A stretch of 64,000 nt of DNA, taken from Candidatus Thiodiazotropha sp. (ex Myrtea sp. 'scaly one' KF741663) (lineage in GTDB: Bacteria > Pseudomonadota > Gammaproteobacteria > Chromatiales > Chromatiaceae). Each line of letters starts with the position of its first letter. Within the stretch, counting starts at the first letter, position 1. Below the pieces are notes generated by a model. That model was not told where the DNA came from, searched no databases, and worked only from the letters and a program-made list of their open reading frames with translations. The stretch lies in the NCBI GenBank assembly GCA_025655555.1, contig JAHXIQ010000002.1:620001-684000 (forward strand). Direction: 5' to 3'. A program made the translations under genes and the position numbers. Of the stretch, positions 981 to 21,916 are shown one piece after another.

Positions 981-981
981 C

Positions 982-1587: not shown

Positions 1588-2345
1588 GTATGGAGCTTCT
1601 TGTCGTATCGGGCAGACCAGGGAATTGGATCTCCCTGCGCGATCCCCGCCTTAGAATTCTCATCGCGCTTGGATTCGCGCTGACTATAGTTAGCCTCAGA
1701 CAGGTCCCGCTACTGTTGTTGGCATTATTTTTTTCCGTTGCACTTGTCCTTTCAACCGGCCTGTCCCCAAGTCGTATTTTCAGGCGCTTGCTGGTCCTGG
1801 AAGGCTTCATGCTTGTACTGTTGCTCCTGCTGCCATTCAGTGTACCGGGTGAGGCCTGGTTTCGACTGGGTCCGATGACAGCCACTTGGGAGGGATTTCA
1901 ACAGGCAATTGTTATCCTGCTGAGGGCGAATGCGATCGTACTCGCCTTGCTGGCCCTCGTAGGCACGTTGGAGCCCGTGGTGCTGGGACATGCACTGTCC
2001 CGTCTGGGGGTGCCTGACAAACTGGCGCATCTTTTTCTCTTCACCGTACGCTATCTTGGATTGCTACACGATGAATACCGGCGATTGCACAAAGCAATGC
2101 TCACCCGTGGCTTTGTGGCGAGAGGTAATCTTCACACTTGGCGTTCCCTGGGTTGGTTGGTGGGAATGCTGCTGGTGCGTAGCCTGGAACGCTCCCAGCG
2201 AATTGTCGCCGCGATGAAGTGTCGGGGCTTCAATGGCAGGTTTTATCTACTGGATGGCCAACACTGGCATTGGGCCGACAGTCTATATGCCCTGATAACA
2301 GTCACTGTTCTGTCTGTACTGCTGTTACTGGATAGGGTGACCTGA
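1584..2345 (+). CDS. nikQ: ECF transporter transmembrane coupling subunit NikQ/CbiQ
   Basis: This is the T-component that links the ATPase to the metal-binding subunit. The start is ATG 1584, overlapping the nikL stop; the frame extends 30 bases upstream but only as overlap. The 253-residue product has several N-terminal membrane helices and, in its C-terminal half, two cytoplasmic ATPase-coupling motifs of the CbiQ 'A-x-x-x-RG' type: 'AMLTRGF' and 'AMKCRGF'. These are diagnostic for EcfT/CbiQ proteins. The stop TGA shares its A with the ATG of the ATPase gene (TGATG), so translation is coupled. Nickel rather than cobalt is inferred from the neighbours. Confidence 0.9.
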   Translation: MSMELLVVSGRPGNWISLRDPRLRILIALGFALTIVSLRQVPLLLLALFFSVALVLSTGLSPSRIFRRLLVLEGFMLVLLLLLPFSVPGEAWFRLGPMTATWEGFQQAIVILLRANAIVLALLALVGTLEPVVLGHALSRLGVPDKLAHLFLFTVRYLGLLHDEYRRLHKAMLTRGFVARGNLHTWRSLGWLVGMLLVRSLERSQRIVAAMKCRGFNGRFYLLDGQHWHWADSLYALITVTVLSVLLLLDRVT

Positions 2346-3118
2346 TGGCGCCCCTCTTTTCTCTCGAGAAGGTCAGCTTCGGTTATCCAGCACATCCGGT
2401 ATTGCGCGAGGTTGGGTTCAATCTGCATCCAAGGGAGCGTGTGGCACTGGTGGGAGCCAACGGTGCGGGTAAATCCACGCTGCTGCACTTACTGGTCGGC
2501 CTCTGCCTGCCCAGTGATGGGACAGTTATCGCATTTGGGAAATCGCGCAAGACAGAGAAGTCGTTTCGCGAGGTTCGTCTGCGTACCGGCCTGCTATTTC
2601 AGGATCCGGATGATCAGTTGTTTAGTCCCACCGTGCTGGAAGACGTGGTCTTCGGACCACGGAATCAGGGCAAGTCCCAACAAGAGGCGCTGGAGATTGC
2701 CCATAAAACACTGCGTACTCTCGGTCTCGACGGTCTTGGTCATCGTGTCACGCATAAGCTCTCCGGTGGAGAGAAAAGACTGGTGTCGCTGGCTACCGTA
2801 TTAGCCATGCAACCGGATGTGTTACTGCTGGACGAACCTACCAACGGTCTGGATGAAAAGACTGAGCAACGGCTGATCGAACATCTCGAGAGCCTGACTC
2901 AAGCCATCGTCTTCGTCTCTCATGATCGTCGTTTTGTCGAGCGGTTGGCCACACGCGCAGTGGTTCTGCAGGACGGTACGCTGCAGGATGCCGTTCTGCA
3001 CAGCCACCCACACAGCCATACCCATTCCCACCTGCATATTCATGCTGTTGATGAGGTGAAGCACGGTCATCAGGCAAAAAATATTCCGCCAGAGCATGGT
3101 GATCATCAACACGATTGA
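2345..3118 (+). CDS. nikO: ECF transporter ATPase NikO/CbiO with His-rich tail
   Basis: This ABC ATPase powers the nickel/cobalt importer. Walker A 'GANGAGKST' is at residues 37-45, the signature 'LSGGEKR' near 139, and Walker B 'VLLLDEPT' near 159, followed by 'FVSHDRR' with the switch His. All catalytic motifs are intact. From about residue 219 the protein carries an extra tail with His at nearly every second position (HSHPHSHTHSHLHIH) and more His to the end; this is not part of the usual ATPase fold and probably binds or buffers metal. It is the last gene of the overlapping nikMLQO set. The tail and the nikR neighbour support nickel. Confidence 0.92.
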   Translation: MAPLFSLEKVSFGYPAHPVLREVGFNLHPRERVALVGANGAGKSTLLHLLVGLCLPSDGTVIAFGKSRKTEKSFREVRLRTGLLFQDPDDQLFSPTVLEDVVFGPRNQGKSQQEALEIAHKTLRTLGLDGLGHRVTHKLSGGEKRLVSLATVLAMQPDVLLLDEPTNGLDEKTEQRLIEHLESLTQAIVFVSHDRRFVERLATRAVVLQDGTLQDAVLHSHPHSHTHSHLHIHAVDEVKHGHQAKNIPPEHGDHQHD

Positions 3119-5923: not shown

Positions 5924-7672
5924 ATGTCATCCCCCCCCACTCACGTTGCAGAGATCTGGCTGGAAAAGCTGTCGCGGCTTGTTAGCGGTGTGGCGTCTGC
6001 TGTGGTGGTTGAAATGCCTGTCACGCAGACGGCAGCGAAGCATGTAACTGCCTGGCCATCCGAGGAGGCGACCGGGGAGTCACTGATTGCCATGGCATCT
6101 CAGGCGGCGACAACGAGACGTCAGTTTGTCAGGGCCGCCGAACAGGGGGATGAGGGTCAGTTCGATCTGCTGGCTGTACCGTTGATCTCTGGAGAGCATG
6201 TCCTGGGCGGTGTGGCTATTCTGCTTACTCATCGGTCTGAGGCAAAACTGAATGCGGCCATGCAGGCGCTTCAGTGGGGAAAACAGTGGTTGGAGCTGTT
6301 GATAGAACGCGCACATGACAGCGGTTCCATATCCCCCGAATGGCTGGGTGATATGACAGGGAAGGAGATATCACCAGACGAACTCGTCAGGCATTTTGCC
6401 AGCCACTTTCAGTGTGATCGTGTCACCCTGGCCATGGGGGATCATCGAAGTCTGGATATTCTGGCAACACACCCCAAAGTTGAAATAAAACGTGAGACCG
6501 GCCTGGTTCGATCCTTCAAAGAGGCAATGTTCGAGGCGATGGATCAGGAGGGTGAGCTGCACTATCCCGCAATGCTGCAGACGGGTGATAAGACGCTGCG
6601 TTTCCATCAGGCACTGTCCGAGCGGATCGGATCCCCGACGCTGCTTACCCTACCCCTTGTGGTTGCCGGTAAAACGGTTGGTGCCCTGTTGCTGGAGCGT
6701 CACCAGGATCAACCGTTCACTGAACCGGAGCGGGAGACATGTTGCCGAATGGCCACCATGGCCGGCGTGATGATGCAGTATCGATATCAGGCTGAGAGGC
6801 CGCTACTTCAGTTGATGGGCGAGCGATTGCGAGAGCGTCTTGGTCTCTGGCTGGGTGCGAACAAGCTGTGGTTGAAAGTCTCGTTGTTGCTTGCGGCTGC
6901 AGTGATCGGTCTGCTCAGTTGGCTTGATGGGGAATACCGTATCGACGCCGAGGCCAGCCTCGAGGGCCGGGTGCAGCGCATGGTGATTGCGCCTTTCGAC
7001 GGTTACCTGAAACTGTCCCATGTCAAGGCGGGGGATAGGGTTGAGCAGGGTGCGGTGCTGTGTGAACTGGATGACCGTGACCTGCAGTTGGAACGGGTCA
7101 AATGGCAGACCCAGTTGGCCAAGCTGGAGAAAGAACAGCGGGAGGCGATGGCAGCCCATGAGCGGGCCAGGGTCGCTATCCTGCATGCCCAACGGCAGCA
7201 GGCTCAGGCGGAGCTCGATCTGGTGGAGAAGAAGCTGGAGCGAAGCATTATCGTTGCGCCTTTGAGCGGTATTGTGGTGAGTGGCGATCTCAGTCAATCC
7301 CTCGGTGCGCCACTGAAGCGGGGGGAGACGCTGTTCAAGGTTGCGCCACTCGACAGTTACCGGGTGATGCTACAGGTGGATGAGCTGGATATCGCAGACG
7401 TACAGCCTGGTCAAGGCGGTAGCCTGATCCTCACCGGTTACCCCCATCTTCGGCATGCCTTTGAAGTGAAGCGCATTCTGCCGCTCTCGACTGCAGAAGA
7501 GGGCAGGCACCTGTTCACGCTGGAGGCGGAGCTGGCCGAATCGGGGCAGAGCCTCCGGCCCGGCATGCAGGGTGTGGCAAAAATCGAGGCGGGTGAGAGA
7601 AGCCTGTTGTGGCTTTCAACCCATCGTTTGGTCGATTGGTTACGCCTGCAACTCTGGGGTTGGTGGGGCTGA
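5924..7672 (+). CDS. GAF-domain HlyD-type membrane fusion protein
   Basis: This is the first gene of the surface-protein operon. Residues 1-310 look like two tandem GAF domains ('FDLLAVPLISGEHVLGGVAIL'; 'TLLTLPLVVAGKTVGALLLE'), which would be cytoplasmic sensors. One membrane helix follows (about 316-334, 'VSLLLAAAVIGLLSW'), then a HlyD-like periplasmic part: lipoyl half ('MVIAPFDGYLKLSHVKAGDRV'), a coiled-coil hairpin rich in Glu, Gln and Arg, the second lipoyl half ('IVAPLSGIVVSGDLS') and a beta-barrel. GAF fused to HlyD is unusual; ordinary adaptors have a short cytoplasmic tail. It ends one base into the next gene (TGATG). I infer that it couples an internal signal to export or assembly of the giant downstream protein. 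The ligand is unknown. Confidence 0.8.
   Translation: MSSPPTHVAEIWLEKLSRLVSGVASAVVVEMPVTQTAAKHVTAWPSEEATGESLIAMASQAATTRRQFVRAAEQGDEGQFDLLAVPLISGEHVLGGVAILLTHRSEAKLNAAMQALQWGKQWLELLIERAHDSGSISPEWLGDMTGKEISPDELVRHFASHFQCDRVTLAMGDHRSLDILATHPKVEIKRETGLVRSFKEAMFEAMDQEGELHYPAMLQTGDKTLRFHQALSERIGSPTLLTLPLVVAGKTVGALLLERHQDQPFTEPERETCCRMATMAGVMMQYRYQAERPLLQLMGERLRERLGLWLGANKLWLKVSLLLAAAVIGLLSWLDGEYRIDAEASLEGRVQRMVIAPFDGYLKLSHVKAGDRVEQGAVLCELDDRDLQLERVKWQTQLAKLEKEQREAMAAHERARVAILHAQRQQAQAELDLVEKKLERSIIVAPLSGIVVSGDLSQSLGAPLKRGETLFKVAPLDSYRVMLQVDELDIADVQPGQGGSLILTGYPHLRHAFEVKRILPLSTAEEGRHLFTLEAELAESGQSLRPGMQGVAKIEAGERSLLWLSTHRLVDWLRLQLWGWWG
5931..5938 (+). repeat. Run of eight C in codons 3-5 of the operon's first gene
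   Basis: The coding sequence reads ATG TCA TCC CCC CCC ACT. A run of eight C this close to the start codon is prone to slippage; gain or loss of one base would abolish the GAF-HlyD protein. Eight is at the low end for known contingency loci. Confidence 0.6.
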
Positions 7673-9822
7673 TGGCGGTACCACAGGAGGCGTCTTGCCA
7701 GACTGACGCTATCTGGCAGCAGATTGCACAGGCCAGGCCTGCACTCAATCCACAAATCGTGATTCGCAGGCAGCGTTATGCAGATGAAATCTGGTATTTG
7801 CTGCAGGACCCGATCAGTGAGCGTCATTTTCGGCTCTCACCCGAGGCCTATCATCTGATTGACCGCTTCAATGGAGAACGCAGTCTGGAAGAGATCTGGC
7901 AAGCGGCGCAAAACCGATGGCAGGACCCGCCCTCGCAAAGTGATTTCATTCGGTTACTGATGCAGTTGCAGGGCGTGGGTGCCATACAAGAAGGAGCGGC
8001 CAGCGAGCCGCTCAAGCTGCTTGAGCGACGCAAAAAACCGCGTCAATGGTTGATGCAACTGCGTAATCCCCTGTCGTTAAGACTACCGTTGTGGGATCCG
8101 GACAAGCTGCTGGATCGATTGTTGCCCCTAGTGCAACCGATGATCGGTCGAACTGGCTTGGTGATCTGGCTGTTGCTGGTGCTCGGTGGTCTGTTGCAGG
8201 CAGGTGTCCACTGGCAGGAGATCTCCCTCAATATCACCAGTCAGTTACTCTCGGCGCAGAATCTCGCCCTGATGGGGCTTGCCTATCTCTTGATGAAGGC
8301 CCTGCATGAGCTGGCCCATGGCATCGCAGTAAAACACTGGGGCGGCGAAGTGCACCAGGTCGGCGTACTCTTCCTGGCGTTGATCCCCATGCCTTATGTC
8401 GATGCCTCTGCAGCCAGTGGTTTTGCCGAGAGGCGAGCGCGTATGGCCGTGGGAGCGGCGGGCATCATGGTCGAGCTTGCACTCGCCTGTATGGCCTTGT
8501 GGCTCTGGCTCGTCACGGAGCAGGGATTGGTCAGTGCCCTGGCCTACAATATGATGCTGATCGGGGGTGTCTCCACTTTGTTGGTAAACGGCAACCCACT
8601 GCTCAAATTCGACGGTTATTATGTGTTTTCCGATCTGCTCGATATCCCCAATCTCTCCACCCGCTCCAACCGCTATCTCGGTTATCTGGTGCAGTATTAC
8701 CTGTTTGGCCTGACAGACTCGGAATCACCAGCGAACAGCTCGTGGGAGAGAAGCTGGTTTCTCTCTTACGGTATTGCCGCATTCTGCTATCGCATCTTCA
8801 TTCTACTGACCATCGCGCTTTTCGTTGCAGAGCGCTATCCGGTGGTGGGTAAGTTACTGGCACTTTGGGCATTGATCGGGATGTTGGCGATACCCATGGT
8901 GAAACAATTTAAATTTCTATTGACCAGTAAAAGACTCGCCAATCGGCGTCCGAAGGCTATGCTGGTCACGGGTGTAATAGTCGCCAGCGTGTCGGTATTG
9001 CTTTTCCTGCTCCCGGCTCCCCACTCTACCCAGGCCCAGGGTGTCGTTATGCCACCGGAGGGTGCGGAGGTGAGGGCTGGAGCAGAGGGGCGTGTGGTGA
9101 GATTGCTGGTTTCCACGGATACCCCGGTTTCACCGAATCAGCCACTGATTGAACTGGCCGATCCATTCCAGCAGACGAAGGTGGAAAGCTTGCAGGGGCG
9201 TGTGAGGGAGCTGTATCTGGAGTACGAGGCCCTGAAAAGTGGACGCGAAAACGTGCAGGCGGAGATGTTGCAGGATGAGATCGCCCTGGTTGAAGCCGAT
9301 CTTGCCAGACAGAAGCTCAAAATTGAGGCATTGACGGTGCGTAGTCCGTCTGCCGGACGATTCTATCTGCAGCAACCCGATGATTTACCTGGTAGCTATC
9401 TGGATCAGGGGGCACTGATCGGTTATGTCATCGATCAGGAATTACCGCTGGTTCGGGTGGCAGTCTCACAACAGGATATCGGGTTGATACGTCAATCCAC
9501 ACTGGCAGTCGATGCCAGATATGCGGCACGACCAGGGGAAGCAATACCCGTGCGACTGGGGCAGGGTGTACCTGAGTCCCAGCAGTATCTGCCCAGTCCG
9601 GTATTGGGGGCGGCAGGTGGTGGACCCTTTCCGTTACACCCACTCGATGAGGATGGTACGAGGCCGTTGGAGCCTGTCTTCGAACTGCTTCTCTACCCGG
9701 AAATACCCCTTGAGCGTCTCGGAGAGCGTGTTGTGATCCGGTTCGATCATGGCGCCGAGCCGTTGGGATGGCAATGGTACCGAGCCCTACGGCAACTGTT
9801 TCTGATGCGCCTTAGCCTTTGA
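7672..9822 (+). CDS. PqqD-like / M50 zinc metalloprotease / HlyD-like fusion
   Basis: This polytopic membrane protein has about 716 residues from ATG 7672, which shares its A with the preceding stop. An N-terminal PqqD-like domain (about residues 25-115, 'HFRLSPEAYHLIDRFNGERS') is followed by an M50 site-2-protease core: zinc motif HELAHG at 212-217 and the third-ligand motif 'NGNPLLKFDGYY' with Asp near 314, on several membrane helices. The C-terminal third has a lipoyl/HlyD-like portion ('VVMPPEGAEVRAGAEGRVV', coiled coil, 'LTVRSPSAGRFYL'). PqqD domains elsewhere bind peptide leaders. An intact protease next to a protein with a conserved N-terminal motif suggests recognition or processing of that motif, but no substrate is proven. 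Confidence 0.85.
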   Translation: MAVPQEASCQTDAIWQQIAQARPALNPQIVIRRQRYADEIWYLLQDPISERHFRLSPEAYHLIDRFNGERSLEEIWQAAQNRWQDPPSQSDFIRLLMQLQGVGAIQEGAASEPLKLLERRKKPRQWLMQLRNPLSLRLPLWDPDKLLDRLLPLVQPMIGRTGLVIWLLLVLGGLLQAGVHWQEISLNITSQLLSAQNLALMGLAYLLMKALHELAHGIAVKHWGGEVHQVGVLFLALIPMPYVDASAASGFAERRARMAVGAAGIMVELALACMALWLWLVTEQGLVSALAYNMMLIGGVSTLLVNGNPLLKFDGYYVFSDLLDIPNLSTRSNRYLGYLVQYYLFGLTDSESPANSSWERSWFLSYGIAAFCYRIFILLTIALFVAERYPVVGKLLALWALIGMLAIPMVKQFKFLLTSKRLANRRPKAMLVTGVIVASVSVLLFLLPAPHSTQAQGVVMPPEGAEVRAGAEGRVVRLLVSTDTPVSPNQPLIELADPFQQTKVESLQGRVRELYLEYEALKSGRENVQAEMLQDEIALVEADLARQKLKIEALTVRSPSAGRFYLQQPDDLPGSYLDQGALIGYVIDQELPLVRVAVSQQDIGLIRQSTLAVDARYAARPGEAIPVRLGQGVPESQQYLPSPVLGAAGGGPFPLHPLDEDGTRPLEPVFELLLYPEIPLERLGERVVIRFDHGAEPLGWQWYRALRQLFLMRLSL

Positions 9823-10065
9823 GGCTTCCCCCGAACGTGCAAGAACGTAGCAAATCTTTGATCAAGGATTAGGAATCCATGTCATGAAGTGCCTGTTTTG
9901 TGTGGGGTTTCTCATCGGGTTTGGTAAAGAAATCCCTGGTTTTGACGCTAGCTTTTATGTAATTGGTTGGATTTAGGAAAGGGATTCTTGTGCTGCGGCA
10001 ACATCCACGTGATGTTTGCTGTTAGTCGCCTATTTCCCTTTGCCTGGGTTGCGATGCTTTGAAAA

Positions 10066-11259
10066 ATGAATAGAGATAAAACGACCACCTTGAGATTTTT
10101 TGTGTTTGCCTGGCTATTCGCAGGCACTCTTTTTTCGTCTGTCGGTGCAGAACTCGATGGCGTGATCGAGCCGTCCATGAGTGTGGCGCTGAGCTCGCGC
10201 ATTGACGGTATCCTCGAGTCGGTGGATGTGGATGTGGGTGATGTCGTCACCAAGAGGCAGGTGTTGGCACAGTTAGAGTCACAGGTCGAGCAGGCGGCGC
10301 TCGCCTATGCCAGTGCCAGAGCCTCCATCTCCAGTGAAGTGCAACTGCAGCAAACCAGCCTTGCCTATGGTCGGCGCCAGTTGAAGCGCATCCAGGAACT
10401 CCACAATAAGAGTCTGGCCTCGTTCCAGGATCTGGATGAGATTGAGACGGAGACCAAGCTGACCCGTTATCGTCTGTCCCAGGCCAAGGAGAACAGATAC
10501 CTGGCGGAACTCGATCTTGCCCAGGCTCAGGCCGTCAAGGATCGCCACTCTATTCGCAGCCCCATCGACGGTATCGTGGTGGAGCGGTTTCTCAATCCGG
10601 GTGAATCTGTGGAAGATCAACCCATCGTTAAGATCGCGCAGATCAATCCGCTTCGCATTGAAGTGGTAGCACCGGTCACCCTGTTGGGTACGATCAAGAC
10701 CGGCCAGTTGGCCACGGTGACGCCAGAATCACCGGTGGGTGGTGAGTACCAGGCTGAAGTGAAAATCGTCGACCCGATACTCGATGCCGCCAGCGGGACA
10801 TTTCGTATCCGTCTGGAGATCCCCAATGATGATTACAAACTGACCAGCGGATTGCGCTGCCGGGTTCGTTTTCTTGAAAAAATGGCGAGTAGGAAACCCG
10901 CGCCCGTAGCGGTGAAAAAAGAACCGACGGTTGTCTCCCGGCAACTGAAGAGAGAAGTCAGCCAGGTCATTCCGGCACAAAAAGTCGACCAATCCGAAAG
11001 CGCAAAGACTGTTTCCAGTAAAAAGAAACAGGCTGAGCGTTACCTGCTGGTCACCAACGAATCATTGCTGCCTTTGAGAAAAGCAATACGTCAGGCCTCG
11101 GTATTCAACAAAAAAGGGGTGGAAGATACCTGGGTTATCGCCAAGGGTTCACTGAAAGGACATATATCCCTCGGTTATTTCAGCAGTCGTAGAAAAGTCG
11201 ATCGTTATCAACAACAGCTCACGGACTTGGGGATCGACACCAGGATCGTTGAGCGATGA
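10066..11259 (+). CDS. Periplasmic HlyD/RND-type adaptor with C-terminal SPOR-like domain
   Basis: The 397-residue protein begins with a signal peptide (about 8-27, ending 'SSVGA'). A membrane-fusion-protein core follows: lipoyl ('LSSRIDGILESVDVDVGDVV'), alpha hairpin (about 75-150), second lipoyl half ('IRSPIDGIVVERFLNPGE') and beta-barrel. After a Lys/Val/Pro-rich linker (about 280-325), the last 70 residues ('ISLGYFSSRRKVDRYQQQL') resemble a SPOR domain, the fold that binds denuded peptidoglycan. That would fix the adaptor to the cell wall, a combination not expected in an ordinary efflux adaptor. Its stop overlaps the giant-protein start by four bases (ATGA). A gap of 243 bp with no gene separates it from the M50 gene. 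Confidence 0.78.
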   Translation: MNRDKTTTLRFFVFAWLFAGTLFSSVGAELDGVIEPSMSVALSSRIDGILESVDVDVGDVVTKRQVLAQLESQVEQAALAYASARASISSEVQLQQTSLAYGRRQLKRIQELHNKSLASFQDLDEIETETKLTRYRLSQAKENRYLAELDLAQAQAVKDRHSIRSPIDGIVVERFLNPGESVEDQPIVKIAQINPLRIEVVAPVTLLGTIKTGQLATVTPESPVGGEYQAEVKIVDPILDAASGTFRIRLEIPNDDYKLTSGLRCRVRFLEKMASRKPAPVAVKKEPTVVSRQLKREVSQVIPAQKVDQSESAKTVSSKKKQAERYLLVTNESLLPLRKAIRQASVFNKKGVEDTWVIAKGSLKGHISLGYFSSRRKVDRYQQQLTDLGIDTRIVER

Positions 11260-14200
11260 GTCGTGATCGACCTAAAAAGCCCAATGCACTGATTTTTGAA
11301 GAGCTGGAACCCCGGCTCCTACTCTCCGCCGATATTGCGGGTGTCGCCATTGATCCTATGCCGGATGATTCTGGCGATCCGGTGGATGAAGACGACCTGC
11401 TATCGCTTGGGCAGTCGCTGCTGAATGAACCCATACCCGTTGATTCACAAGAGGCTGACACAGGCCGCAATGAGTTGGTCATTATCGACCCGTTAACCCC
11501 CGACTATCAAAGCCTGGTGGATGATCTCATCGATCGCGAGGGGAGTGACATCAATTTTGAGATCATTCTGCTCGACAGTGCCGACAACGGCATTGAGCAG
11601 ATGGGTCATATTCTTGATCAATACCGGGATCTGGATGCGCTGCATCTCATCAGTCACGGCGGTGAAGGGGAGGTTCGTCTCGCAGGTACAACCCTCGACT
11701 TGTCTGCGCTCAACGACTCATTGGAACAGATCGGTGGATGGAGTAACGCCTTTGCAGCCGAAGGGGATTTATTGATCTACGGCTGTAACCTGGCATCCAC
11801 GGCGGATGGTGAGTTGTTCATCGACAAGCTGGCCCAATTGACCGGTGTGGACGTGGCCGCCTCCGATGATCTCACCGGTTCCGTATCGCAGGGCGGAGAC
11901 TGGGATCTGGAGTACCAGGTCGGTACCCTGGAGACCAGTATTGCCTTTTCCGGACAGCTGCAGAGCAGTTGGAGCGGTACGCTCGACATCACCACCGGCC
12001 TGGTGGGTTATTACGATTTTGAAGAGGGCAGTGGTGCCGCCGCCATCGATAGCAGTGCGACGGGTAACAACGGTACGTTGATCGGCTCCCCGGTCTATAC
12101 CACCGGACAAGTCGGCAGTTATGCGTTGAGTTTCAACGGTGATTTCGATCGGGTGGAAGCACCGGATAGTTTGGCCACGAACTTCGGTAACGGCGACTTT
12201 GCAGTGGGCTTCTGGTTCAACTCAACCTATTCGGGTGGTACAGCCCGACTGGTCGGCGATATGGATGGCGGCGACGGCTATGTTTTCTATACCACGGGGG
12301 TTGGTGATGTCACCTTCGGCGTGATATCGGGAATAGATTCTGTCACGTTAGCCTCAGGCGGACTGTTCGACGGTAACTGGCACCATGTTGTGGGTATGGT
12401 AAACGGTGCAGATTGGTCCCTGTATGTTGATGGCACTCTCGTTGACTCAATAAACAACGGGTTTGTCGGCAATATCGATAACAGTAATACCCTGCGTATC
12501 GGTGCCTCGAGTGCCAGTCATAATGAATACGATGGCTTGATCGACGATGTCAGAATCTACGATCGCGCCCTCACGACAACGGATATCAATGAGCTTATTG
12601 CGCTAGCCGAAGATCCGCCGAGCATCACTGGTGCCAGCCTGACCCTGTCCGAAGGCCAGACGGTAACCCTGGACGGCGCCAATTTCAGCATCTCAGACCC
12701 CGACAGTTCGAGTTTTACCTACTCTTTGAGCGGTGTGGCCGGGGGTTACTTCCAGTTGAGTACCAATCCCGGTGTATCGATCACCAGCTTCACCAGCGCC
12801 AACCTGACGGGAGGGGTGGTGCAGTTTGTGGACAACGATGATGAGATCGCGCCGGCGTTCAGCGTCACGGTCAATGACGGTACCAGTGATTCCAACACCC
12901 GGGTAGCCACCATCAGCTACACACCTGTGAATGACGCACCCGATGTGATTAACCTCGACGGTGACGTCCTCAACTATACAGAAGGCGATGGCGTCGTTCT
13001 GATTGAGCAGGGCGGTGACGTCGTTATTAGTGATCCCGATTCAAGTAACTTTGCAGGTGGTTCGCTCACCGTGGAAGTTGATAGTGGCTTACAGGCGGCT
13101 GAGGACAAATTTTCCATCGTCAATCAGGGGGCGGGTGCCGGACAAATCGGCTTGAATGTTAGTGATGTGACATATAGTGGTGTTGTGATCGGGAGCGTGA
13201 GCGGGGGAACGGGCATAGACCCATTGACTGTCACGCTAAATTCGAATGCAACATCAGCTGCCGTAACGGCATTGATTCGAAACATCAGTTATGAAAACAG
13301 CAATATCGATAATCCCACGGGTGGTTCACGCAGTGTCGTGGTCGATGTTACTGATGGCGATGGCGATGGCGATGGCGATGGCGATGGCGGTGCCAGTGTC
13401 ACTCAGAATCTGACCCTGAATGTTACTTCAGTCAACGATGCGCCGGTTGTCGATTTAAATGGCTCCGATGGTGCGGGTGCGGACTTTGCAGTGACCTTCA
13501 CGGAAGACGGTGGGGCTGTCAATGTCGTTGACGCGGATGCGACAATCAGTGATGCAGATAGTGCATTTTATGAAAATCTGAGTATCAACCTGACGAATTT
13601 CCCGGATGGCGGCAACGAACAGATTGTGATCGCCGGATATACCTTCAACTACGGTACCGCTGATACCGCAACGCGCACTGTCGGCAGCGCCAGTTTTGTC
13701 ATCGATTTCGATGGTTCCGGTTTTAATGTCACGCCGGATGGATTCGGTTGGATGCCGGAAGTCGATCTGCAGAACCTGTTGCGAGGCGTTACTTATGAAA
13801 ACACCTCCCAGGATCCAACCGCAGGTGATCGTACGATCAATGTTTTTGCGCAGGACAGTTCGCTCCTGGTTGGTCCCATTGCGACTTCGACGATCACCGT
13901 CAATCCGCAGAATGATTCACCCACGGCGACAAACAACACCAATTCCGTTTTGGAAAACGGTTTTGTTTCGGGAAATGTCATCACGGATGACTCCGGATCC
14001 GGGATTGACAGCGATCCGGAGGGAGATGGTCTGCAGGTAACCCAGGTTGAAGGGGGAGCCTACACACCCGGATTTCCGGTAACCCTGGCTTCGGGCGCGC
14101 AAGTCACTTTTCAATCCAACGGCAGCTATACCTACAATACCAACGGTCAGTTTGATGGACTGGGTGCCGGTAGCAGTGTGGATGACAGTTTTACCTACCA

Positions 14201-17200
14201 GATCAGTGATGGCAATGGGGGTTTCGATACCGCTACGGTTACCGTTACGATCAACGGCAGTAATGATGCTCCATCAATCACGAGTGCCGGCCTCACCTTG
14301 GATGAAGGCGAGATTGTCACCCTCAGTGACGCCAACTTTGCGTTCACCGATGCAGACGATACAGCCTTTACCTACACGGTAAGCGGTATCAGTGGCGGTT
14401 ACTTCCAGCTGAGTAGTGCGCCTGGCACACCTATTACCACGTTTACCAGCGCGAACCTGACGGGTGGTCTGGTGCAGTTCGTGGACAACGGTGATGAGAC
14501 CGCACCAGTGTTCAGCGTCACGGTCAATGACGGGGATTCAGATTCCAACACCCTGGCGGCAACCATCAACTATACACCGGTCAACGATCCGCTGATGCTT
14601 GTGACCAATTCGCCGCTGTCGGTGCCTGAGGAAGGTACGCGCACGATAACGAATAGCTATCTTGCTGTGTCTGATGTGGACAATTCGGCTGCACAGTTGA
14701 CCTATACGCTGACCAGCTTGCCATCGAGCGGTAGTTTGCGTTTGAGTGGCTCGACGCTGAGCCTCAGCGATACATTTACACAGGATGATATTGACAACAA
14801 TCGTCTGACTTTCGGCTTTTCCGATGATGCATCGGCGACCAGCTTCGCGTTTACCGCCAGTGACGGTACCGACATAATCGGCCCGATCATTTTCTCGGTG
14901 AATGGTCAACCGGTCAATGATGCGCCGGTCAACCTGGTCCCAGCATCTTGCAGCGTGAATGAAAATATCACATTGAATTTCACAGGCGCGGATCAGATTC
15001 AGATCAGCGATATCGATCATATCGGCGGCACCATGCAGGTGCAGCTCAATATAGGCGCAGGTGGCCTGCTGACTCTGGGCGACACCTCTGGCCTGACTTT
15101 CTCCGCCGGCGATGGCACCGATGATGCCAACATGGTTTTCACCGGTACCCTGGCCGATATCAATACCGCCCTTTTAACACTAAGCTTCACACCTACCTCT
15201 GACTTCAACGGTGATGTCAATTTCACCATCATCACTAATGACCAAGGCAATAGCGGTACCGACCCGGGGTTGACCGGCGATGCCGCAAGCGAACAGGACA
15301 GCGATACCTTCACGATTACCGTCAACGCGATTAATGATGCGCCAGTACTCGACAGCGCTTTACTCACACTGAGTGAAGGCCAGACCGTGACCCTGTCCGC
15401 TGTCAACTTCGGCATCACCGATCCGGACGACACCGCTTTTACTTATACACTGAGCGGTATCTCAGGTGGTTACTTCCAGTTGAGCACCAACCCCGGTGTT
15501 TCGATTGCCAGTTTCAGCAGTGCTGAGCTATTGGCCAATGAGGTCCAGTTCGTCGACAACGGCGATGAGGCTGCACCCAGCTTTAGCATCACTGTCAATG
15601 ACGGCGATGCCGACTCCAGCACCCTGGCGGCAACGGTGATTTACACCTCAGCCAATGACGTGCCGGTACTCAACAGCGCCGATATGACCGTCACCGAAGG
15701 ACAGACCGTCACCCTGACCGGCGCCAACTTCGGCATCACCGATCCGGACGACACCGCCTTTACTTATACCCTGAGCGGAGTGACCGGGGGTTACTTCCAG
15801 TTGAGTACCAACCCCGGTGTTTCGGTCACCAGCTTCAGCAGCGCTGAGCTCAGCGGAAGTCTGGTTCAGTTCGTGGACAACGGTGATGAGACTGCTCCGG
15901 CGTTCAGTATCACGGTCAATGATGGCGATGCCGACTCCAACACCCTGGCGGCAACGGTGATTTACACCTCAGCCAATGATGTGCCGGTACTCAACAGCGC
16001 CGATATGACCGTCACCGAAGGACAGACCGTCACCCTGACCGCCGCCAACTTCGGTATCACCGATCCGGATGACACGGATTTTTCTTATACCCTGAGCGGA
16101 GTGGTCGGGGGTTACTTTCAGTTGAGCACCAACCCCGGTGTATCGATCACCAGTTTCACCAGCACCCAGCTCACGGCCAATGAGGTCCAGTTCGTCGACA
16201 ACGGCGATGAGGTCGCACCAGTATTCAGCATCACAGTCAATGACGGTACCAACGATTCCAATACCCTGGCGGCAATTGTAAACTTCACAACAATTGATGA
16301 GGCGCCAATAGCGAATAATGATAGTGTCAACGTTGATGAAGGAGGCAGTGTTTTAATAAATGTCGTCAGTAATGATGCTGATCCAGAGAGCGCATTGGAT
16401 TTGGCCAGTATTGTTGTTGTAGGGCATCCTACGAATGGCACATTAGTCAATAATGGTGATGGTGCATTTGTATATACCCATAACGGCTCAGAGACACTAT
16501 CGGATTTATTCGCTTATACAATCAAAGATGATTCAGGTGCTACTTCAAATGTTGCTGTTGTCGACTTGACTATTAATCCAGTTAACGATGTGCCTGTCAT
16601 TACCAGTCATGCCGGCAGCCAGACAGTTACGTCATTTATTGACGAGAATCTCAATGTGGTGACTGGCGTTAGTGCATATGATGCAGAGGGAGATGGCTTG
16701 ACATTTTCAATCAGTGGCGGCGATGATTTTGGCCTTTTTGCAATTGATCATTTAACGGGTTTGTTGAGTTTTTCCAGTACACCAAATGCAGAATCTCCAC
16801 TAGATTCTGGCCGGAACAATAGTTATTCCGTGGAGGTTATGGTCTCTGATGGGAATGGTGGAACGGCAATCCAGGCATTTGATATTACCGTCAGAGATGT
16901 GGATGAATTTGATGTAGGCTTGATTATGGATATGCAGTCAGATCCTGATCAAGTAACGACAATCCATGCAACAGGTTCAGCGGTGGGTGTGACTGTGTGG
17001 GCGTCTGATCCAGATATATCGAATAATGATATTGTTTATTCATTGATCGATGATGGTGGTGGTCACTTTGTTATCAATTCCACAACTGGTGCGATTTCAT
17101 TGTCACAGCCGTTTGTTGATACCGAAAGATATCAGTCAGAGGTGATTGTACGTGCTACCAGTAGCGACGGCTCTATTTCGCAACGTAGCTTTCTGATTGA

Positions 17201-17948
17201 GGTCCTGCCGGTAGTTGAGCCAGTTGTGGAACCGTCTCCACCCACTCTGGACGAGATTATCGTTGATCTGCTGCCGGATGATGATTCCGCGCAGATTGCT
17301 ACTGACACACCTGGCTGGTCATCAGTGTCTGATTCAACTGATTTGTCAGGATCTGGCGAATTGGATGAAGAATCAGCGGCAGATGATATAACCGAAGAAT
17401 CTGTAGTAGTCATGCCCATAGAGACATATGAGCAGACAATGAGTTTTGCTGATCGATTGAGTCGGCCTTTGGTCGGCGTCTTTGATCATTCAAACAATCA
17501 TTCAATCGCCTTTCGTTATTTCGATTTGACGCCAGAAACGTTAGATATCGATGCCCTACCCAGACTGAATACGTTATCTGTCGATAATAGTCTTGCAGTG
17601 CCAAAAACTGTTTGGGCCATGCTCGATGCTATGAGTTTAGAGATTTCGCAACACCAGGCTGAGGTGGATGAGAATTCGGAGATGGTCTTTAAGGGAGTGA
17701 CTGTGGGCACAGTCGGCCTGACTGCCGGTTATGTTGCATGGTTGTTGCGGGCGGGCCTCCTGTCGGCAAGTTTGCTGTCATTTTCTCCCCTGTGGCGTCA
17801 GGTGGATCCTCTTCCTGTATTATCTGCAAGTGCAAAAAAGCGAACTGACAATGAGAGCGAATCTCCCGTTGAAGATGCCCAGGAAAAAAGGATATCCAAG
17901 CTGTTTGAAGCTAAAAGAAAATCTCATCAGGACCGGTATGCAGGATAA
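11256..17948 (+). CDS. Giant LEPR-XLL / DUF4347 / LamG / cadherin-like surface protein
   Basis: The protein has 2230 residues. The N-terminus has no hydrophobic signal peptide but carries the LEPR-XLL motif 'LEPRLLLSAD' (17-26). A DUF4347 domain follows (about 70-240, 'LHLISHGGEGEVRLAG', 'LLIYGCNLASTADG'), then a LamG/concanavalin-like domain (about 248-445, 'GNWHHVVGMVNGADWSLYVDG'). From about 455 to 1950 there are repeated cadherin-like/CSPG-type modules ending 'VNDAP' or similar. An acidic low-complexity stretch, a hydrophobic segment (about 2148-2176) and a basic tail close the protein. The Asp/Asn-rich repeats are typical of calcium-stabilised adhesins. The layout implies a large envelope or surface domain with a C-terminal anchor, exported by an unconventional route probably encoded just upstream. 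Domain calls are by eye. Confidence 0.82.
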   Translation: MSRDRPKKPNALIFEELEPRLLLSADIAGVAIDPMPDDSGDPVDEDDLLSLGQSLLNEPIPVDSQEADTGRNELVIIDPLTPDYQSLVDDLIDREGSDINFEIILLDSADNGIEQMGHILDQYRDLDALHLISHGGEGEVRLAGTTLDLSALNDSLEQIGGWSNAFAAEGDLLIYGCNLASTADGELFIDKLAQLTGVDVAASDDLTGSVSQGGDWDLEYQVGTLETSIAFSGQLQSSWSGTLDITTGLVGYYDFEEGSGAAAIDSSATGNNGTLIGSPVYTTGQVGSYALSFNGDFDRVEAPDSLATNFGNGDFAVGFWFNSTYSGGTARLVGDMDGGDGYVFYTTGVGDVTFGVISGIDSVTLASGGLFDGNWHHVVGMVNGADWSLYVDGTLVDSINNGFVGNIDNSNTLRIGASSASHNEYDGLIDDVRIYDRALTTTDINELIALAEDPPSITGASLTLSEGQTVTLDGANFSISDPDSSSFTYSLSGVAGGYFQLSTNPGVSITSFTSANLTGGVVQFVDNDDEIAPAFSVTVNDGTSDSNTRVATISYTPVNDAPDVINLDGDVLNYTEGDGVVLIEQGGDVVISDPDSSNFAGGSLTVEVDSGLQAAEDKFSIVNQGAGAGQIGLNVSDVTYSGVVIGSVSGGTGIDPLTVTLNSNATSAAVTALIRNISYENSNIDNPTGGSRSVVVDVTDGDGDGDGDGDGGASVTQNLTLNVTSVNDAPVVDLNGSDGAGADFAVTFTEDGGAVNVVDADATISDADSAFYENLSINLTNFPDGGNEQIVIAGYTFNYGTADTATRTVGSASFVIDFDGSGFNVTPDGFGWMPEVDLQNLLRGVTYENTSQDPTAGDRTINVFAQDSSLLVGPIATSTITVNPQNDSPTATNNTNSVLENGFVSGNVITDDSGSGIDSDPEGDGLQVTQVEGGAYTPGFPVTLASGAQVTFQSNGSYTYNTNGQFDGLGAGSSVDDSFTYQISDGNGGFDTATVTVTINGSNDAPSITSAGLTLDEGEIVTLSDANFAFTDADDTAFTYTVSGISGGYFQLSSAPGTPITTFTSANLTGGLVQFVDNGDETAPVFSVTVNDGDSDSNTLAATINYTPVNDPLMLVTNSPLSVPEEGTRTITNSYLAVSDVDNSAAQLTYTLTSLPSSGSLRLSGSTLSLSDTFTQDDIDNNRLTFGFSDDASATSFAFTASDGTDIIGPIIFSVNGQPVNDAPVNLVPASCSVNENITLNFTGADQIQISDIDHIGGTMQVQLNIGAGGLLTLGDTSGLTFSAGDGTDDANMVFTGTLADINTALLTLSFTPTSDFNGDVNFTIITNDQGNSGTDPGLTGDAASEQDSDTFTITVNAINDAPVLDSALLTLSEGQTVTLSAVNFGITDPDDTAFTYTLSGISGGYFQLSTNPGVSIASFSSAELLANEVQFVDNGDEAAPSFSITVNDGDADSSTLAATVIYTSANDVPVLNSADMTVTEGQTVTLTGANFGITDPDDTAFTYTLSGVTGGYFQLSTNPGVSVTSFSSAELSGSLVQFVDNGDETAPAFSITVNDGDADSNTLAATVIYTSANDVPVLNSADMTVTEGQTVTLTAANFGITDPDDTDFSYTLSGVVGGYFQLSTNPGVSITSFTSTQLTANEVQFVDNGDEVAPVFSITVNDGTNDSNTLAAIVNFTTIDEAPIANNDSVNVDEGGSVLINVVSNDADPESALDLASIVVVGHPTNGTLVNNGDGAFVYTHNGSETLSDLFAYTIKDDSGATSNVAVVDLTINPVNDVPVITSHAGSQTVTSFIDENLNVVTGVSAYDAEGDGLTFSISGGDDFGLFAIDHLTGLLSFSSTPNAESPLDSGRNNSYSVEVMVSDGNGGTAIQAFDITVRDVDEFDVGLIMDMQSDPDQVTTIHATGSAVGVTVWASDPDISNNDIVYSLIDDGGGHFVINSTTGAISLSQPFVDTERYQSEVIVRATSSDGSISQRSFLIEVLPVVEPVVEPSPPTLDEIIVDLLPDDDSAQIATDTPGWSSVSDSTDLSGSGELDEESAADDITEESVVVMPIETYEQTMSFADRLSRPLVGVFDHSNNHSIAFRYFDLTPETLDIDALPRLNTLSVDNSLAVPKTVWAMLDAMSLEISQHQAEVDENSEMVFKGVTVGTVGLTAGYVAWLLRAGLLSASLLSFSPLWRQVDPLPVLSASAKKRTDNESESPVEDAQEKRISKLFEAKRKSHQDRYAG
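13353..13388 (+). repeat. Six tandem GATGGC units inside the giant protein gene
   Basis: Six perfect copies of GATGGC encode (Asp-Gly)6 followed by another Gly at about residue 700. The hexamer length keeps the frame whatever the copy number, so expansion or contraction would alter only linker length. Confidence 0.9.
15345..16307 (+). repeat. Three tandem 321-bp repeats (107-residue cadherin-like modules)
   Basis: Copies begin with GTACTC at 15345, 15666 and 15987, an exact 321-bp period. Copies two and three are nearly identical over long stretches at DNA level, while more distant copies of the same module (about 12630-12940 and 14275-14590) are more diverged. This points to recent in-frame duplication or ongoing homogenisation. 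Confidence 0.85.
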
Positions 17949-17960
17949 GGAAATCTCAGA

Positions 17961-20900
17961 ATGCAAATGAGTCCGACAATAAAAATCACGTTAGGTCTTG
18001 TGCTTCTCACGCTGAGTATACTGCTGCTTGGCCGGTTGGTTGGGTTTGTGCCCGATGAGAGCAAATCCGAGCTCGATGCAAGAAAGAAGTTTTGTGAATC
18101 ACTGGCGATACAAATTTCGTCTGTAGCTGCAAATAATGATATTGAGAGCCTGCGGCAAACACTGGAAAGCATTGTTGAACGAAACGATGACGTACTTTCC
18201 AGTGCGCTCAAGGGCAGAGGTGGTCTGTCGTTGGTTGTGGGAGATCATGAAAAGTATTGGGTCGACTTGCCATTGGATAAGTCTACTTCAACTCATGTTC
18301 TAGTACCAATTTTCGCTAATGAGACCCAATGGGGAATGCTGGAGGTTGCATTCAAGGAAATTGATGCTGGTCAGGGGTTTAGTTTTGGCACGCTTGGTGG
18401 ACTCTTACTTTTCGTTGCTCTGCTTGGATTTGTTCTTTATCTGATATTTATTAAACGTACTTTACGGGAACTGGATCCAAAGGCAGTCATACCAGAGCGG
18501 GTACGCTCGGCATTCAATGCACTTTCCGAGGGTTTGATTATCCTGGATGAGAAGCATCAGATCATTCTTGCCAACGAATCGTTCTCTGAAAAGACCAGCT
18601 TGGATGCTGACTCACTGATAGGCTTGCGTGCAGATGAGTTGAGTTGGAAAAAACGCGAGCGCGGTGCAACCGTTGATCTCTATCCCTGGCAAATCAGCAT
18701 GCAGAATAACCAGCGCAAGACCGGTGTTCCCATGCGCCTCCAACTGAAGAACAAGAGTGAACGTACTTTTTCAGTAAATACTGCCCCGATCTTCGATGGC
18801 AAAGGCAATCCAAGAGGCGTATTGGCTACCTTCGACGATATGACGGACTTGGAGAAAAAGCATAGGGAGCTTCAGTCAACACTGGAAAAGCTAAAAACAT
18901 CGGAAAAGGCGTTGCGCGACAAAACTGTCGAGCTGGAGTTACTTGCGAGTCGGGATCCGCTGACCGGTTGCTTTAACCGCCGCGCCTTTTTCCAAAAATA
19001 TGATCTGCTGTATGACGAGGCTGTACGGGGTGAGTATGGGCTTGTTTTTATGATGGTGGACATTGATCGTTTTAAATCAATCAATGATCAATACGGCCAT
19101 GCCAATGGCGATAAAGTGATCAAGTTTGTTGCGGAAACGCTGGTATCAAAATCGAGACCTGAGGACATCGTCGGTCGATATGGTGGTGAGGAGTTTTCCC
19201 TGATCATGCCCCACACGGATATTGAGCAGGCGATGGTGATGGCCGAACGGCTGCGTATGGAGGTTCAGCAAAAGGGTCATGAGCTGTTCACAAACAGCAG
19301 AACAGTGACGGTCAGTATCGGTGTTGCCGAGTTGTCTGAATATTTGGATGAACCGATGTTGCTCATCAATAATGCGGATGATGCCTTGTATAAGGCGAAG
19401 GAGCAGGGACGGAACAGGGTAGTCAACTGGTTACCTGAGATGGGGGACGATCAAAGGACTTCTGCGAAAGGGGAGAGTAGTGCTACAACAAAAGAAGAAG
19501 TACTGGCAGATAGCCTGACTGCAGAGAAATCGCTAAAAAATGAGATACATCGTTTGGAAGACACGGTGGTGGAGCTTGAGTCTCAACTGGAATACAGTCG
19601 GGAAGAGATCAAGCGACGTGAAGGCAAGGATGAGCTGACGGGTTTACCCAATACGATTATTTTCAAGGACAGAATTTTGCAAGTGTTGGCTAGATGTAAA
19701 CGATACAACCGTTCAGCGGCTGTGATATCACTCGATATCGATGATTTTCATACGATCAATGAGGCATTTGGTTATACGGTTGGCGATAAGCTGTTGCGGG
19801 TAGTCTCGTCGCGCTTGGTCGATACGCTACGTATGACGGATACTGTCGCTATTATGGATGAGCAGGAGGAGAGTGAGTCCTCTACTATCTCAAGGGTGAA
19901 TAATGACGAATTTGCCCTGATTCTTACCGATGTTGATGATATTGAAGGTGTGGCCTGGGCTATCCGGAGGATATTGAAAGCGCTAAAAAGCGACATCGAA
20001 ATTGATGGCCAGGAGTTGTTCGTATCATACAGCGTGGGTGTCTCCCTCTACCCACTTGATGATGATCAGCCCGGCGGGTTGTTGCAAAAAGCCAGTGCCG
20101 CCCGACATGCAGCCAAACGGGCGGAGGGTAGGGATAACATCCGTTTCTTCTCAAAGGATATTAATCGTAGTGCCTATCGAAAAGTCTGGTTGGAGAACGA
20201 ACTGCACAAAGCCATTGTACGTTCTCAGATCGAATTGGCTTACCAACCGATTATTGACATGAAATCCGGTCGTATCGTTAAGATGGAGGCACTGGCAAGA
20301 TGGAATCATCCAAAAGTTGGGCAGATTCCACCCAGTGAGTTCATACCGGTTGCGGAACATACCGGACTGATACACAAACTGGGTTCCAAGGTTTTACGGA
20401 AGGCATGTCGAGATCTTAAAAAATGGCATGATGCCGGTTATGATGACCTGCAAGTTGCAGTCAATCTATCGGCGGTTCAGTTTCGCCAGGAAGACCTTGT
20501 CGAGAAGATCATACATGCTTGTTCAAAAGTCGGGATTGATCCCTCGTATCTAAATCTTGAGATAACAGAGAGTTCGCTGGTTGAAAAATTCGAGGTGGTA
20601 CTCCGTGTGATGAAGCAGATGAGTCAGGCCGGTATCAGTTTTACCCTGGATGATTTTGGCAAGGGGTTTTCTTCTCTTAGCTATCTGAGTCACCTGCCGA
20701 TCAACTGTATTAAGATTGACCAGTCCTTTATCGTCGAAACCCTGCCAAATGAGCAGGACCAAGCAATTCTGAACGGTATTGTGGCGCTGGCGAAAAGCCT
20801 GCAACTGCAAGTGGTGGCTGAAGGCGTGGAGACAGAAGCACAAAAAGCAATTTTGACCAGTCTTGGTTGTCACGAAGGCCAGGGGAAGCTCTTTTCAGAG

Positions 20901-20972
20901 CCTCTGACCAGACAGGAAGCGAGCAAAATGCTTCAATCTTTTAATCGAGATCCTGGTGAGAGTGAAATGTAG
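17961..20972 (+). CDS. Membrane PAS–GGDEF–GGDEF–EAL c-di-GMP enzyme
   Basis: The 1003-residue protein has a helix at about 7-29, a periplasmic segment, a second helix near 143-165 and a PAS domain (about 180-300). A first GGDEF domain follows with an intact 'GGEEF' near 408 and an I-site RPED five residues before it. A second GGDEF-like domain is degenerate ('NNDEF' near 647). The C-terminal EAL domain keeps 'EALAR', 'VNLSA', 'EITESS', 'DDFGKGFSSL' and 'EGVETE', so both synthesis and hydrolysis of c-di-GMP look possible. It starts 12 bp after the giant surface protein, so it is probably co-transcribed. By analogy with c-di-GMP-controlled adhesins it may set surface retention or release; that is inference. 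Confidence 0.9.
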   Translation: MQMSPTIKITLGLVLLTLSILLLGRLVGFVPDESKSELDARKKFCESLAIQISSVAANNDIESLRQTLESIVERNDDVLSSALKGRGGLSLVVGDHEKYWVDLPLDKSTSTHVLVPIFANETQWGMLEVAFKEIDAGQGFSFGTLGGLLLFVALLGFVLYLIFIKRTLRELDPKAVIPERVRSAFNALSEGLIILDEKHQIILANESFSEKTSLDADSLIGLRADELSWKKRERGATVDLYPWQISMQNNQRKTGVPMRLQLKNKSERTFSVNTAPIFDGKGNPRGVLATFDDMTDLEKKHRELQSTLEKLKTSEKALRDKTVELELLASRDPLTGCFNRRAFFQKYDLLYDEAVRGEYGLVFMMVDIDRFKSINDQYGHANGDKVIKFVAETLVSKSRPEDIVGRYGGEEFSLIMPHTDIEQAMVMAERLRMEVQQKGHELFTNSRTVTVSIGVAELSEYLDEPMLLINNADDALYKAKEQGRNRVVNWLPEMGDDQRTSAKGESSATTKEEVLADSLTAEKSLKNEIHRLEDTVVELESQLEYSREEIKRREGKDELTGLPNTIIFKDRILQVLARCKRYNRSAAVISLDIDDFHTINEAFGYTVGDKLLRVVSSRLVDTLRMTDTVAIMDEQEESESSTISRVNNDEFALILTDVDDIEGVAWAIRRILKALKSDIEIDGQELFVSYSVGVSLYPLDDDQPGGLLQKASAARHAAKRAEGRDNIRFFSKDINRSAYRKVWLENELHKAIVRSQIELAYQPIIDMKSGRIVKMEALARWNHPKVGQIPPSEFIPVAEHTGLIHKLGSKVLRKACRDLKKWHDAGYDDLQVAVNLSAVQFRQEDLVEKIIHACSKVGIDPSYLNLEITESSLVEKFEVVLRVMKQMSQAGISFTLDDFGKGFSSLSYLSHLPINCIKIDQSFIVETLPNEQDQAILNGIVALAKSLQLQVVAEGVETEAQKAILTSLGCHEGQGKLFSEPLTRQEASKMLQSFNRDPGESEM

Positions 20973-21620: not shown

Positions 21621-21916
21621 TAGGGCCTGTTAACACTAATTTGATCGTCACTGCCAAGACCATTTTTTTGTCTAGCAAGGCAGAAGGAGTGCGGTGTAGC
21701 CGGTCTACATAAGCGACTGATAACGCCGCTGGGCGAAAAAATGGCCTTGGCCCTCCGGGTTGCGCCTGAAAAAGCGCCACTCGGCGTTACTCGTCGCTCA
21801 TTTGGAATAACCAAACTACGCTCCTCGCGCCCCGAAGGAAGTGCCCTTGGGGTGTGCCTTGATTGGCACTTTTTCAGGTGCAACAGTGGCAATCAAATTA
21901 GTGTTAACAGGCCCTA
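21621..21916. mobile_element. Miniature inverted-repeat element, copy 1
   Basis: This is a non-coding element of 292 bp (21623-21914) bounded by TA on both sides, as expected for TA target duplication. The terminal inverted repeats are perfect over 25 bp counted from the TA and begin TAGGGCCTGTTAACACTAAT. The core contains a second, inner inverted repeat (CCTGAAAAAGCGCC... and ...GGCACTTTTTCAGG). Copy 2 at 42134-42456 shares the ends and much of the core in the opposite orientation. No transposase is encoded. TA target and short ends suggest mobilisation by an IS630/Tc1-type transposase encoded elsewhere. The 136 bp between the frameshifted gene and the element hold nothing recognisable. Confidence 0.85.

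Follow-up and report, generated by a model that had tools for sequence, protein, structure and literature searches.

The window, a 64,000-nucleotide stretch of Candidatus Thiodiazotropha sp. (contig JAHXIQ010000002.1, positions 620,001 to 684,000; genome of 3.98 Mb in 9 contigs), carries five consecutive plus-strand genes between its positions 5924 and 20972. They encode a GAF-HlyD protein (gene 1), a PqqD-M50-HlyD protein (gene 2), a periplasmic HlyD-type adaptor (gene 3), a giant protein beginning with the LEPR-XLL motif (gene 4), and a GGDEF-EAL enzyme (gene 5). Across genomes of the same phylum, LEPR-XLL proteins are accompanied by M50-HlyD genes. This association, reported here for the first time, is supported by sequence comparison, with a second phylum agreeing weakly, and it suggests that LEPR-XLL is probably a cargo tag of an M50-HlyD machine. 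The link was the central inference of the initial annotation of this DNA and is strengthened by the present comparison. The locus may be composed of two modules, an M50/HlyD export or processing machine that handles the LEPR-XLL giant and a signalling pair formed by the C-terminal segment of the giant and the cyclase; the probability of this reading is put at about one half.

Association of LEPR-XLL proteins with M50-HlyD genes

The main sample consisted of 299 genomes of the phylum to which the window belongs, with G000 included by construction (handles beginning with G denote genomes and those with L denote loci). M50-HlyD was scored as present when a match of about 129 bits or more was listed, and as absent when none stood among the matches listed; at E<=0.001, gene 2 matches occurred in 111 of the 299 genomes, many of them weak. 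The LEPR-XLL search was reported at E<=1, a level at which half of the 14 control genomes (7) also gave matches, one of them (Deinobacterium chartae) over the cut-off. For the main count, a match had to score at least 20 bits and lie in a frame of at least 500 residues; no row was omitted at these thresholds. A clear LEPR-XLL protein was found in 42 genomes, 41 of which also have listed M50-HlyD, compared to 83 of the 299 overall (Fisher p 5.5e-26). Leaving out G000, the count is 40 of 41, and the lone genome without listed M50-HlyD, G212, is 86% complete. By genus, M50-HlyD accompanies LEPR-XLL in 24 of 24 cases, against 42 of 154 genera that have M50-HlyD overall (p 4.6e-17); when the motif threshold is lowered to 17 bits, the count is 35 of 36. 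A chance neighbourhood was rejected on the basis of this association.

The proximity of the genes points in the same direction. The initial annotation had suggested scoring co-occurrence within 10 kb. Among 94 LEPR frames (17 bits, 500 residues or more; the longest frame of the search reaches 19,427 residues), 45 share a contig with a listed M50 match, and 40 of these 45 lie within that distance. The loci compared were 40 fetched M50 neighbourhoods and the best 80 of a longer list of named records. LEPR-type N-termini (12 LEPR, 1 LEAR, 2 LERR) adjoin the module in at least 15 of the 80 named loci, the count being a minimum since the fetched flank is too short for many giants; differently spelled motif matches in L035, L053, L061, L106, L108, L125, and L150 were treated as chance. 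When 14 of the 80 named genomes were searched whole, 13 had LEPR-XLL over the cut-off, and the 14th (L088) has a LEAR variant directly adjoining the module. Five of the 14 were picked with an adjacent giant already known, and the other 9 of 9 also match. The closest M50 protein among the best 80 named loci, at 63%, is that of Candidatus Thiodiazotropha endolucinida, in which genes 1 to 4 follow in the same order up to the contig end.

The second sample comprised 148 genomes around G299, a member of another phylum that was included by construction and chosen for having M50-HlyD. M50-HlyD (E<1e-15) was found in 10 genomes and clear LEPR-XLL in 5, with both present in 3 of the 5; without G299, 2 of 4 LEPR genomes have M50-HlyD, and at 17 bits 5 of 8.

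A more distant type of M50-HlyD locus, also with HlyD genes, was seen in L063, L065, L066, L068, L069, and L070, and giants starting LEPR/LELR-x-x-FDGA are present in L065, L066, and L069. OEP (TolC-family) genes were found in five M50-HlyD loci tested (L053, L063, L065, L068, and L070). The presence of HlyD genes, LEPR-type giants, and OEP genes in these loci fits a trans-envelope conduit.

Genes 1 to 3: the candidate machine

Gene 1 (5924..7672) was confirmed as a GAF domain fused to an HlyD adaptor domain, with a membrane helix, by Pfam and NCBIfam matches, and its counterpart adjoins M50-HlyD in most related loci. In related loci (for example L033, L050, L077, L100, L110), long proteins encoded immediately before the GAF-HlyD gene frequently terminate in [ILVM]-[DNQKRE]-W, such as LIDW or RIQW; the pattern is present in the last 75 residues of 17 of 33, compared to 4 of 33 when the ends are reversed and an average of 1.2 of 33 for windows taken from the interior. 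Shortly after the module, genes resembling two-partner secretion by eye occur in L050 (L050:11020-20000), and a protein with an autotransporter beta-domain in L036 (L036:11332-17517).

Gene 2 (7672..9822, ATG at 7672) encodes 716 residues, and its start overlaps the end of gene 1 in the sequence TGATG (7670-7674). In the window protein, M50 (26.2 bits, Pfam cut-off 27.2) and HlyD_3 (21.5 bits, cut-off 22.2) are just below threshold and PqqD is weak (15.1 bits, cut-off 23.4). In 30 aligned family members at E<=0.05, M50 was detected in 29, HlyD_3 in 27, and PqqD in 21; the PqqD-like domain is located at about residues 30-105 (7759..7986). In the predicted structure (pLDDT 86), residues 30-101 follow the order strand-strand-strand-helix-helix-helix, and there are also a membrane region made of helices and a portion matching MexA and MacA. 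In the fold search, the 50 best matches listed were all HlyD-type adaptors, such as these two, and the M50 and PqqD parts had no fold match among them.

Every protein of two alignments (12 of 12 and 30 of 30) keeps the zinc site HELAH of the M50 domain (residues 212-216, 8305..8319). H212, E213, and H216, together with the distal ligand D314 (8611-8613), are unchanged in all 30, giving the HExxH plus distal Asp expected of M50 zinc ligands. This invariance makes cleavage possible, and the giant may be cut near its LEPR-XLL end. Since binding of leader peptides is the task of PqqD-type domains during peptide maturation, it is fair to infer that LEPR-XLL is a tag bound by the PqqD-like domain.

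Gene 3 (10066..11259) matches a periplasmic HlyD-type adaptor, in agreement with the initial annotation, which had also assigned it a SPOR domain holding a trans-periplasmic scaffold to the wall. The scaffold role is not supported. No SPOR match was found in the window protein at E<=10 (Pfam), and the SPOR model matched only L121, the Marinobacter counterpart (23.5 bits, cut-off 21). By eye, SPOR-like tails, which in the window would lie at about 11038-11256, are present in 5 of 10 compared gene 3 proteins. To judge from these sequences, SPOR is a tail of some lineages and therefore not a core of the scaffold, and it was rejected as such.

No ABC exporter and no TolC-type gene was found by Pfam among the five genes, as had been noted. 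Elsewhere, the genome contains 4 ABC_membrane genes, and OEP is matched in 6 reading frames. The type I secretion arrangement, with ABC exporter, HlyD, and TolC as one system, is not seen here, ABC_membrane and OEP being located only outside the five genes.

The giant protein

Gene 4 (11256..17948) overlaps the end of gene 3 in the sequence ATGA (11256-11259). Its product of 2230 residues (pI 4.05) contains LEPR-XLL, DUF4347, a LamG-like domain, cadherin-type repeats, and a C-terminal hydrophobic segment. The motif (residues 12-34, 11289..11357) belongs to family NF012209 with 25.5 bits (cut-off 17). No signal-peptide-like stretch was found in the first 70 residues, where the best 19-residue hydropathy is 0.91, which confirms a giant with LEPR-XLL at its N-terminus and no hydrophobic signal peptide.

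Within the DUF4347 domain (11475..11984), His134-Gly135 and Cys177 are unchanged in every one of 8 aligned proteins, and as a lead from its model the domain could be a cysteine-protease-like domain with a caspase/legumain-like fold. The caspase-like reading is kept at the level of a lead because the model has a pLDDT of 65, the query-normalised TM is 0.38 or less, and short-chain dehydrogenases rank among the caspases in the fold matches, which also include legumain. The confident core begins only at about residue 70, and the top fold match is to one chain in a type VI effector complex (9qpe, E 9.1e-5).

SecA-bearing and SecA-less loci

Genes 2 and 3 are separated by 243 bases (9823..10065). 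At this position, mostly directly after gene 2, the majority of relatives carry a protein of about 660 residues; three of these were run through Pfam and are SecA, and the others match a profile built from ten of them. Among 113 M50 rows of the tree set, SecA is in the locus in 92, divergent or broken in 5, absent in 7, and cut by contig ends in 9. The window genome has no second SecA, its single SecA being a 942-residue frame of canonical size. A single canonical SecA is also found in the genomes of L048, L071, L109, L121, and L141 and in G102, the last with a more distant M50 type; the absence is less sure for L109 and L141, whose genomes are metagenome-derived bins (2.1 and 2.8 Mb). Two SecA proteins each are present in four control genomes whose locus includes SecA (L085, L103, L122, L145); the L096 genome has its second SecA elsewhere, and the L102 genome has a divergent second SecA. 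In each of the six Pseudomonadota loci without SecA, that of the window among them, gene 3 is immediately followed by the gene of a LEPR/DUF4347 giant.

A quick tree did not unite the rows without SecA in one group. There are 6 label changes, of which strongly supported branches force at least 3, and long branches leave some placements unsure; the idea that loci with and without SecA differ by just one change was therefore rejected. The label is not clearly clustered, as few changes being obtained in 76 of 500 shuffles, and since the root is arbitrary, loss rather than gain of SecA is an inference. Low-scoring proteins (90-228 bits to the SecA profile) occupy the SecA position in L060, L099, L102, and L112, and in L057 the protein is split over three frames; these five are possibly altered or decaying SecA proteins, judging by their scores and frames.

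The C-terminus of the giant and the GGDEF-EAL enzyme

The initial annotation made no mention of the hydrophobic segment at the end of the giant. The most hydrophobic stretch of the whole protein, GYVAWLLRAGLLSASLLSF, lies near this end and is followed by PLWRxxDPLPVL and a charged tail, a pattern common to six aligned proteins, and the region (LLRAG...PLWRxxDPLPVL, 17694..17822) is a putative membrane anchor. Over the C-terminal segments compared, the best 19-residue hydropathy ranges from 1.25 to 2.03. Gene 5 (17961..20972) starts 12 bases after the giant gene, and all three junctions of the initial annotation are thus as described. Its product has an N-terminal region with two membrane helices, PAS, two GGDEF domains, and EAL. 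The PAS-GGDEF-EAL description was correct as far as it went, but a second, degenerate GGDEF (NNDEF) had been overlooked next to the first (GGEEF). GGEEF is kept in 6 of 6 enzymes whose sequence covers the site, and no EAL match was found in the L048 enzyme.

With a profile of the C-terminal segment, four of the 299 genomes (G000, G186, G102, and G287) were matched strongly, at 68 bits or more; five further matches of 17-20 bits in frames of 54-198 residues were taken as noise. The N-terminal region of gene 5 was found at E<=1e-5 in exactly the same four genomes, in each case 17 to 44 bases downstream. The G102 giant starts LEPRFMFDGA. In G287 the pair (L227:7833-13004 and 12926-15931) consists of an adhesin unrelated to the giant, with a Sec-type start and filamentous-haemagglutinin-like by eye, followed by the GGDEF enzyme. 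No LEPR motif and no M50 match was detected in the 20 kb fetched around it, the M50 gene being about 565 kb away from the protein with the segment. The segment and enzyme are therefore separable from the export genes.

Since the enzyme tracks the C-terminus of the giant and not the M50/HlyD genes, it was rejected as a part of that module, and the control of export by c-di-GMP, as initially proposed, is unsupported. The pairing is read instead as a possible output, in which the state of the giant would be converted to c-di-GMP.

Proposed mechanism and alternatives

In the two-module reading, PqqD-M50-HlyD in the inner membrane, GAF-HlyD, and the periplasmic HlyD adaptor would together form an envelope-spanning export or processing machine, which presumably docks a TolC-type channel encoded elsewhere. 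This machine would handle the giant, the PqqD-like domain binding its N-terminus and M50 possibly cutting it. A dedicated SecA paralogue could supply the power in most relatives, the branch of the window being without one. In the second module, the C-terminal segment would hold the exported giant in the inner membrane beside the gene 5 enzyme, whose intact diguanylate cyclase motif could report the outside state of the giant as c-di-GMP inside. A wider proposal, offered tentatively, is less likely than not: LEPR-XLL would be the leader of an unrecognised Gram-negative export route in which PqqD-guided M50-HlyD replaces the ABC pump as inner-membrane gate. A second SecA would be usual in this route, with several lineages managing without it. 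In one branch, the exported giant would stay C-terminally anchored beside a diguanylate cyclase and turn outside contact into c-di-GMP.

Several observations weigh against the two-module reading. At 17 bits and 500 residues, 60 of 65 LEPR genomes have M50-HlyD and 5 do not; this count used 75 of the 80 over-cut-off genomes, rows that pass only with in-frame neighbours being omitted (G055, G090, G130, G187, G298), and three omitted rows have frames of 500 residues or more (G130, G187, G113:C318). The co-occurrence p-values ignore kinship, with the genus counts as the sole adjustment. The initial annotation held that LEPR-XLL proteins commonly found without the M50/HlyD genes would contradict it; 1 of 42 genomes in the main sample is of this kind, but in the phylum of G299 it is 2 of the 5 clear LEPR genomes, G394 and G447, which have LEPR-XLL proteins and no M50 match. 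The C-terminal segment of the giant is borderline as a membrane helix, with an Arg inside and a best 19-residue hydropathy of 1.33. Two of the four genomes with the segment/enzyme pair are not independent, as G000 and G186 contributed to the search alignments and G102 and G287 did not. Finally, the window locus has no dedicated ATPase among its five genes.

This lack of an ATPase would suit a somewhat unlikely alternative, in which the giant leaves the cell through an ABC-type (type I) exporter encoded outside the locus. M50/HlyD would then do no more than hold the LEPR-XLL end or trim it, and so keep the giant back or release it. The ABC_membrane and OEP genes of the window genome could provide such an exporter. 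A LEPR-XLL giant whose C-terminus holds RTX and serralysin domains has been published (PMC10868602); such RTX domains would be in keeping with ordinary type I export and also count against the two-module reading. For the window giant, by contrast, neither Pfam nor NCBIfam gave an RTX-type match at E<=0.001, and related loci carry SecA or OEP genes. According to section 17 of PMC4452313, ABC homologues could not be identified in the related loci of that study; ABC genes were not searched in the loci compared here.

Export of the giant by general Sec is improbable. LEPR-XLL would then serve as an atypical signal, with housekeeping SecA acting where the second SecA is absent and M50/HlyD acting afterwards. 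It would agree with the SecA paralogue of the relatives and with the one canonical SecA retained in the seven tested genomes without a second SecA, but the N-terminus of the giant has no hydrophobic core, and Sec alone leaves the HlyD adaptors and the LEPR/M50 association unexplained. That the genes adjoin without working together is very improbable. The distance in G287 between the M50 gene and a protein with the same C-terminus would be expected in that case, but the association extends across 24 genera and the genomes of several phyla, and the gene starts overlap.

Surroundings of the locus

Upstream of the locus, at 369-3118, genes resembling a cobalt/nickel ECF transport set (CbiM, CbiQ, CbiO) were noted by eye. 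About 290 bases at 21623-21914, between perfect inverted 23-base ends (GGGCCTGTTAACACTAATTTGAT), resemble a small mobile element, and a third copy of the 23-base end with 3 mismatches lies at 42136-42158.

Comparison with known systems

The adaptor domains are shared with type I secretion and tripartite efflux (HlyD, MacA, MexA with TolC), as are the OEP genes of the five related loci; unlike in these systems, no ABC, RND, or MFS pump is present among the five genes, and the M50 protein is the main membrane protein. The best NCBIfam match of gene 2 is the daptide M50 protease NF041824 (173 bits), which spans the PqqD-like and M50 parts. The match is under the cut-off of 300, and gene 2 differs by its additional HlyD domain and its giant neighbour. 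In LapA/LapD-type systems, c-di-GMP controls giant adhesins through a receptor with degenerate GGDEF and EAL, with LapG as partner. The window resembles them in that a GGDEF-EAL membrane protein is encoded next to a giant of surface type; in contrast, gene 5 retains GGEEF and is paired with a C-terminal segment, and with GGEEF and EAL motifs present, it reaches 195.6 bits with the LapD model, far below the cut-off of 1020. The LEPR-XLL family NF012209, to which the giant belongs, is here tied to M50-HlyD. No export route for LEPR-XLL proteins was found in a literature search, and the papers naming the motif give none in the parts available.

Most similar is the locus of Kamneva, Poudel and Ward (2015), with GAF-HlyD, Peptidase_M50-HlyD, HlyD, and a secondary SecA_DEAD (PMC4452313). 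In the parts available, it is called related to type I secretion and given a proposed secretion-related function, its broader role being "completely unknown". The GAF-HlyD/PqqD-M50-HlyD/HlyD set, to which most relatives add a SecA ATPase after gene 2, had thus already been published, and the description of the system as undescribed does not hold. The paper also names GAF, M50, SecA, and HlyD genes of Methylorubrum extorquens AM1, to which the genome of L097 is related. The words "lepr" and "cadherin" are absent from the text of that paper, and nothing beyond it was found in the literature that links LEPR-XLL, or SecA with HlyD and M50; as far as could be seen, PMC5313232 cites it and PMC13274458 concerns an ordinary type I system. 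The window shares with this locus GAF-HlyD adjoining M50-HlyD and a further HlyD gene, but has no secondary SecA_DEAD in locus or genome and adds the LEPR-XLL giant and the GGDEF-EAL enzyme. With one SecA in its genome, it is therefore a SecA-less relative rather than a full member. The link found here would supply a cargo for that secretion-like locus and an export route for the N-terminal motif of very large bacterial proteins, and the separable pairing of C-terminal segment and GGDEF enzyme raises the question of how giant surface proteins might signal. On this comparison of sequences, the window locus is a SecA-less variant of the published locus, for which a cargo can now be proposed.

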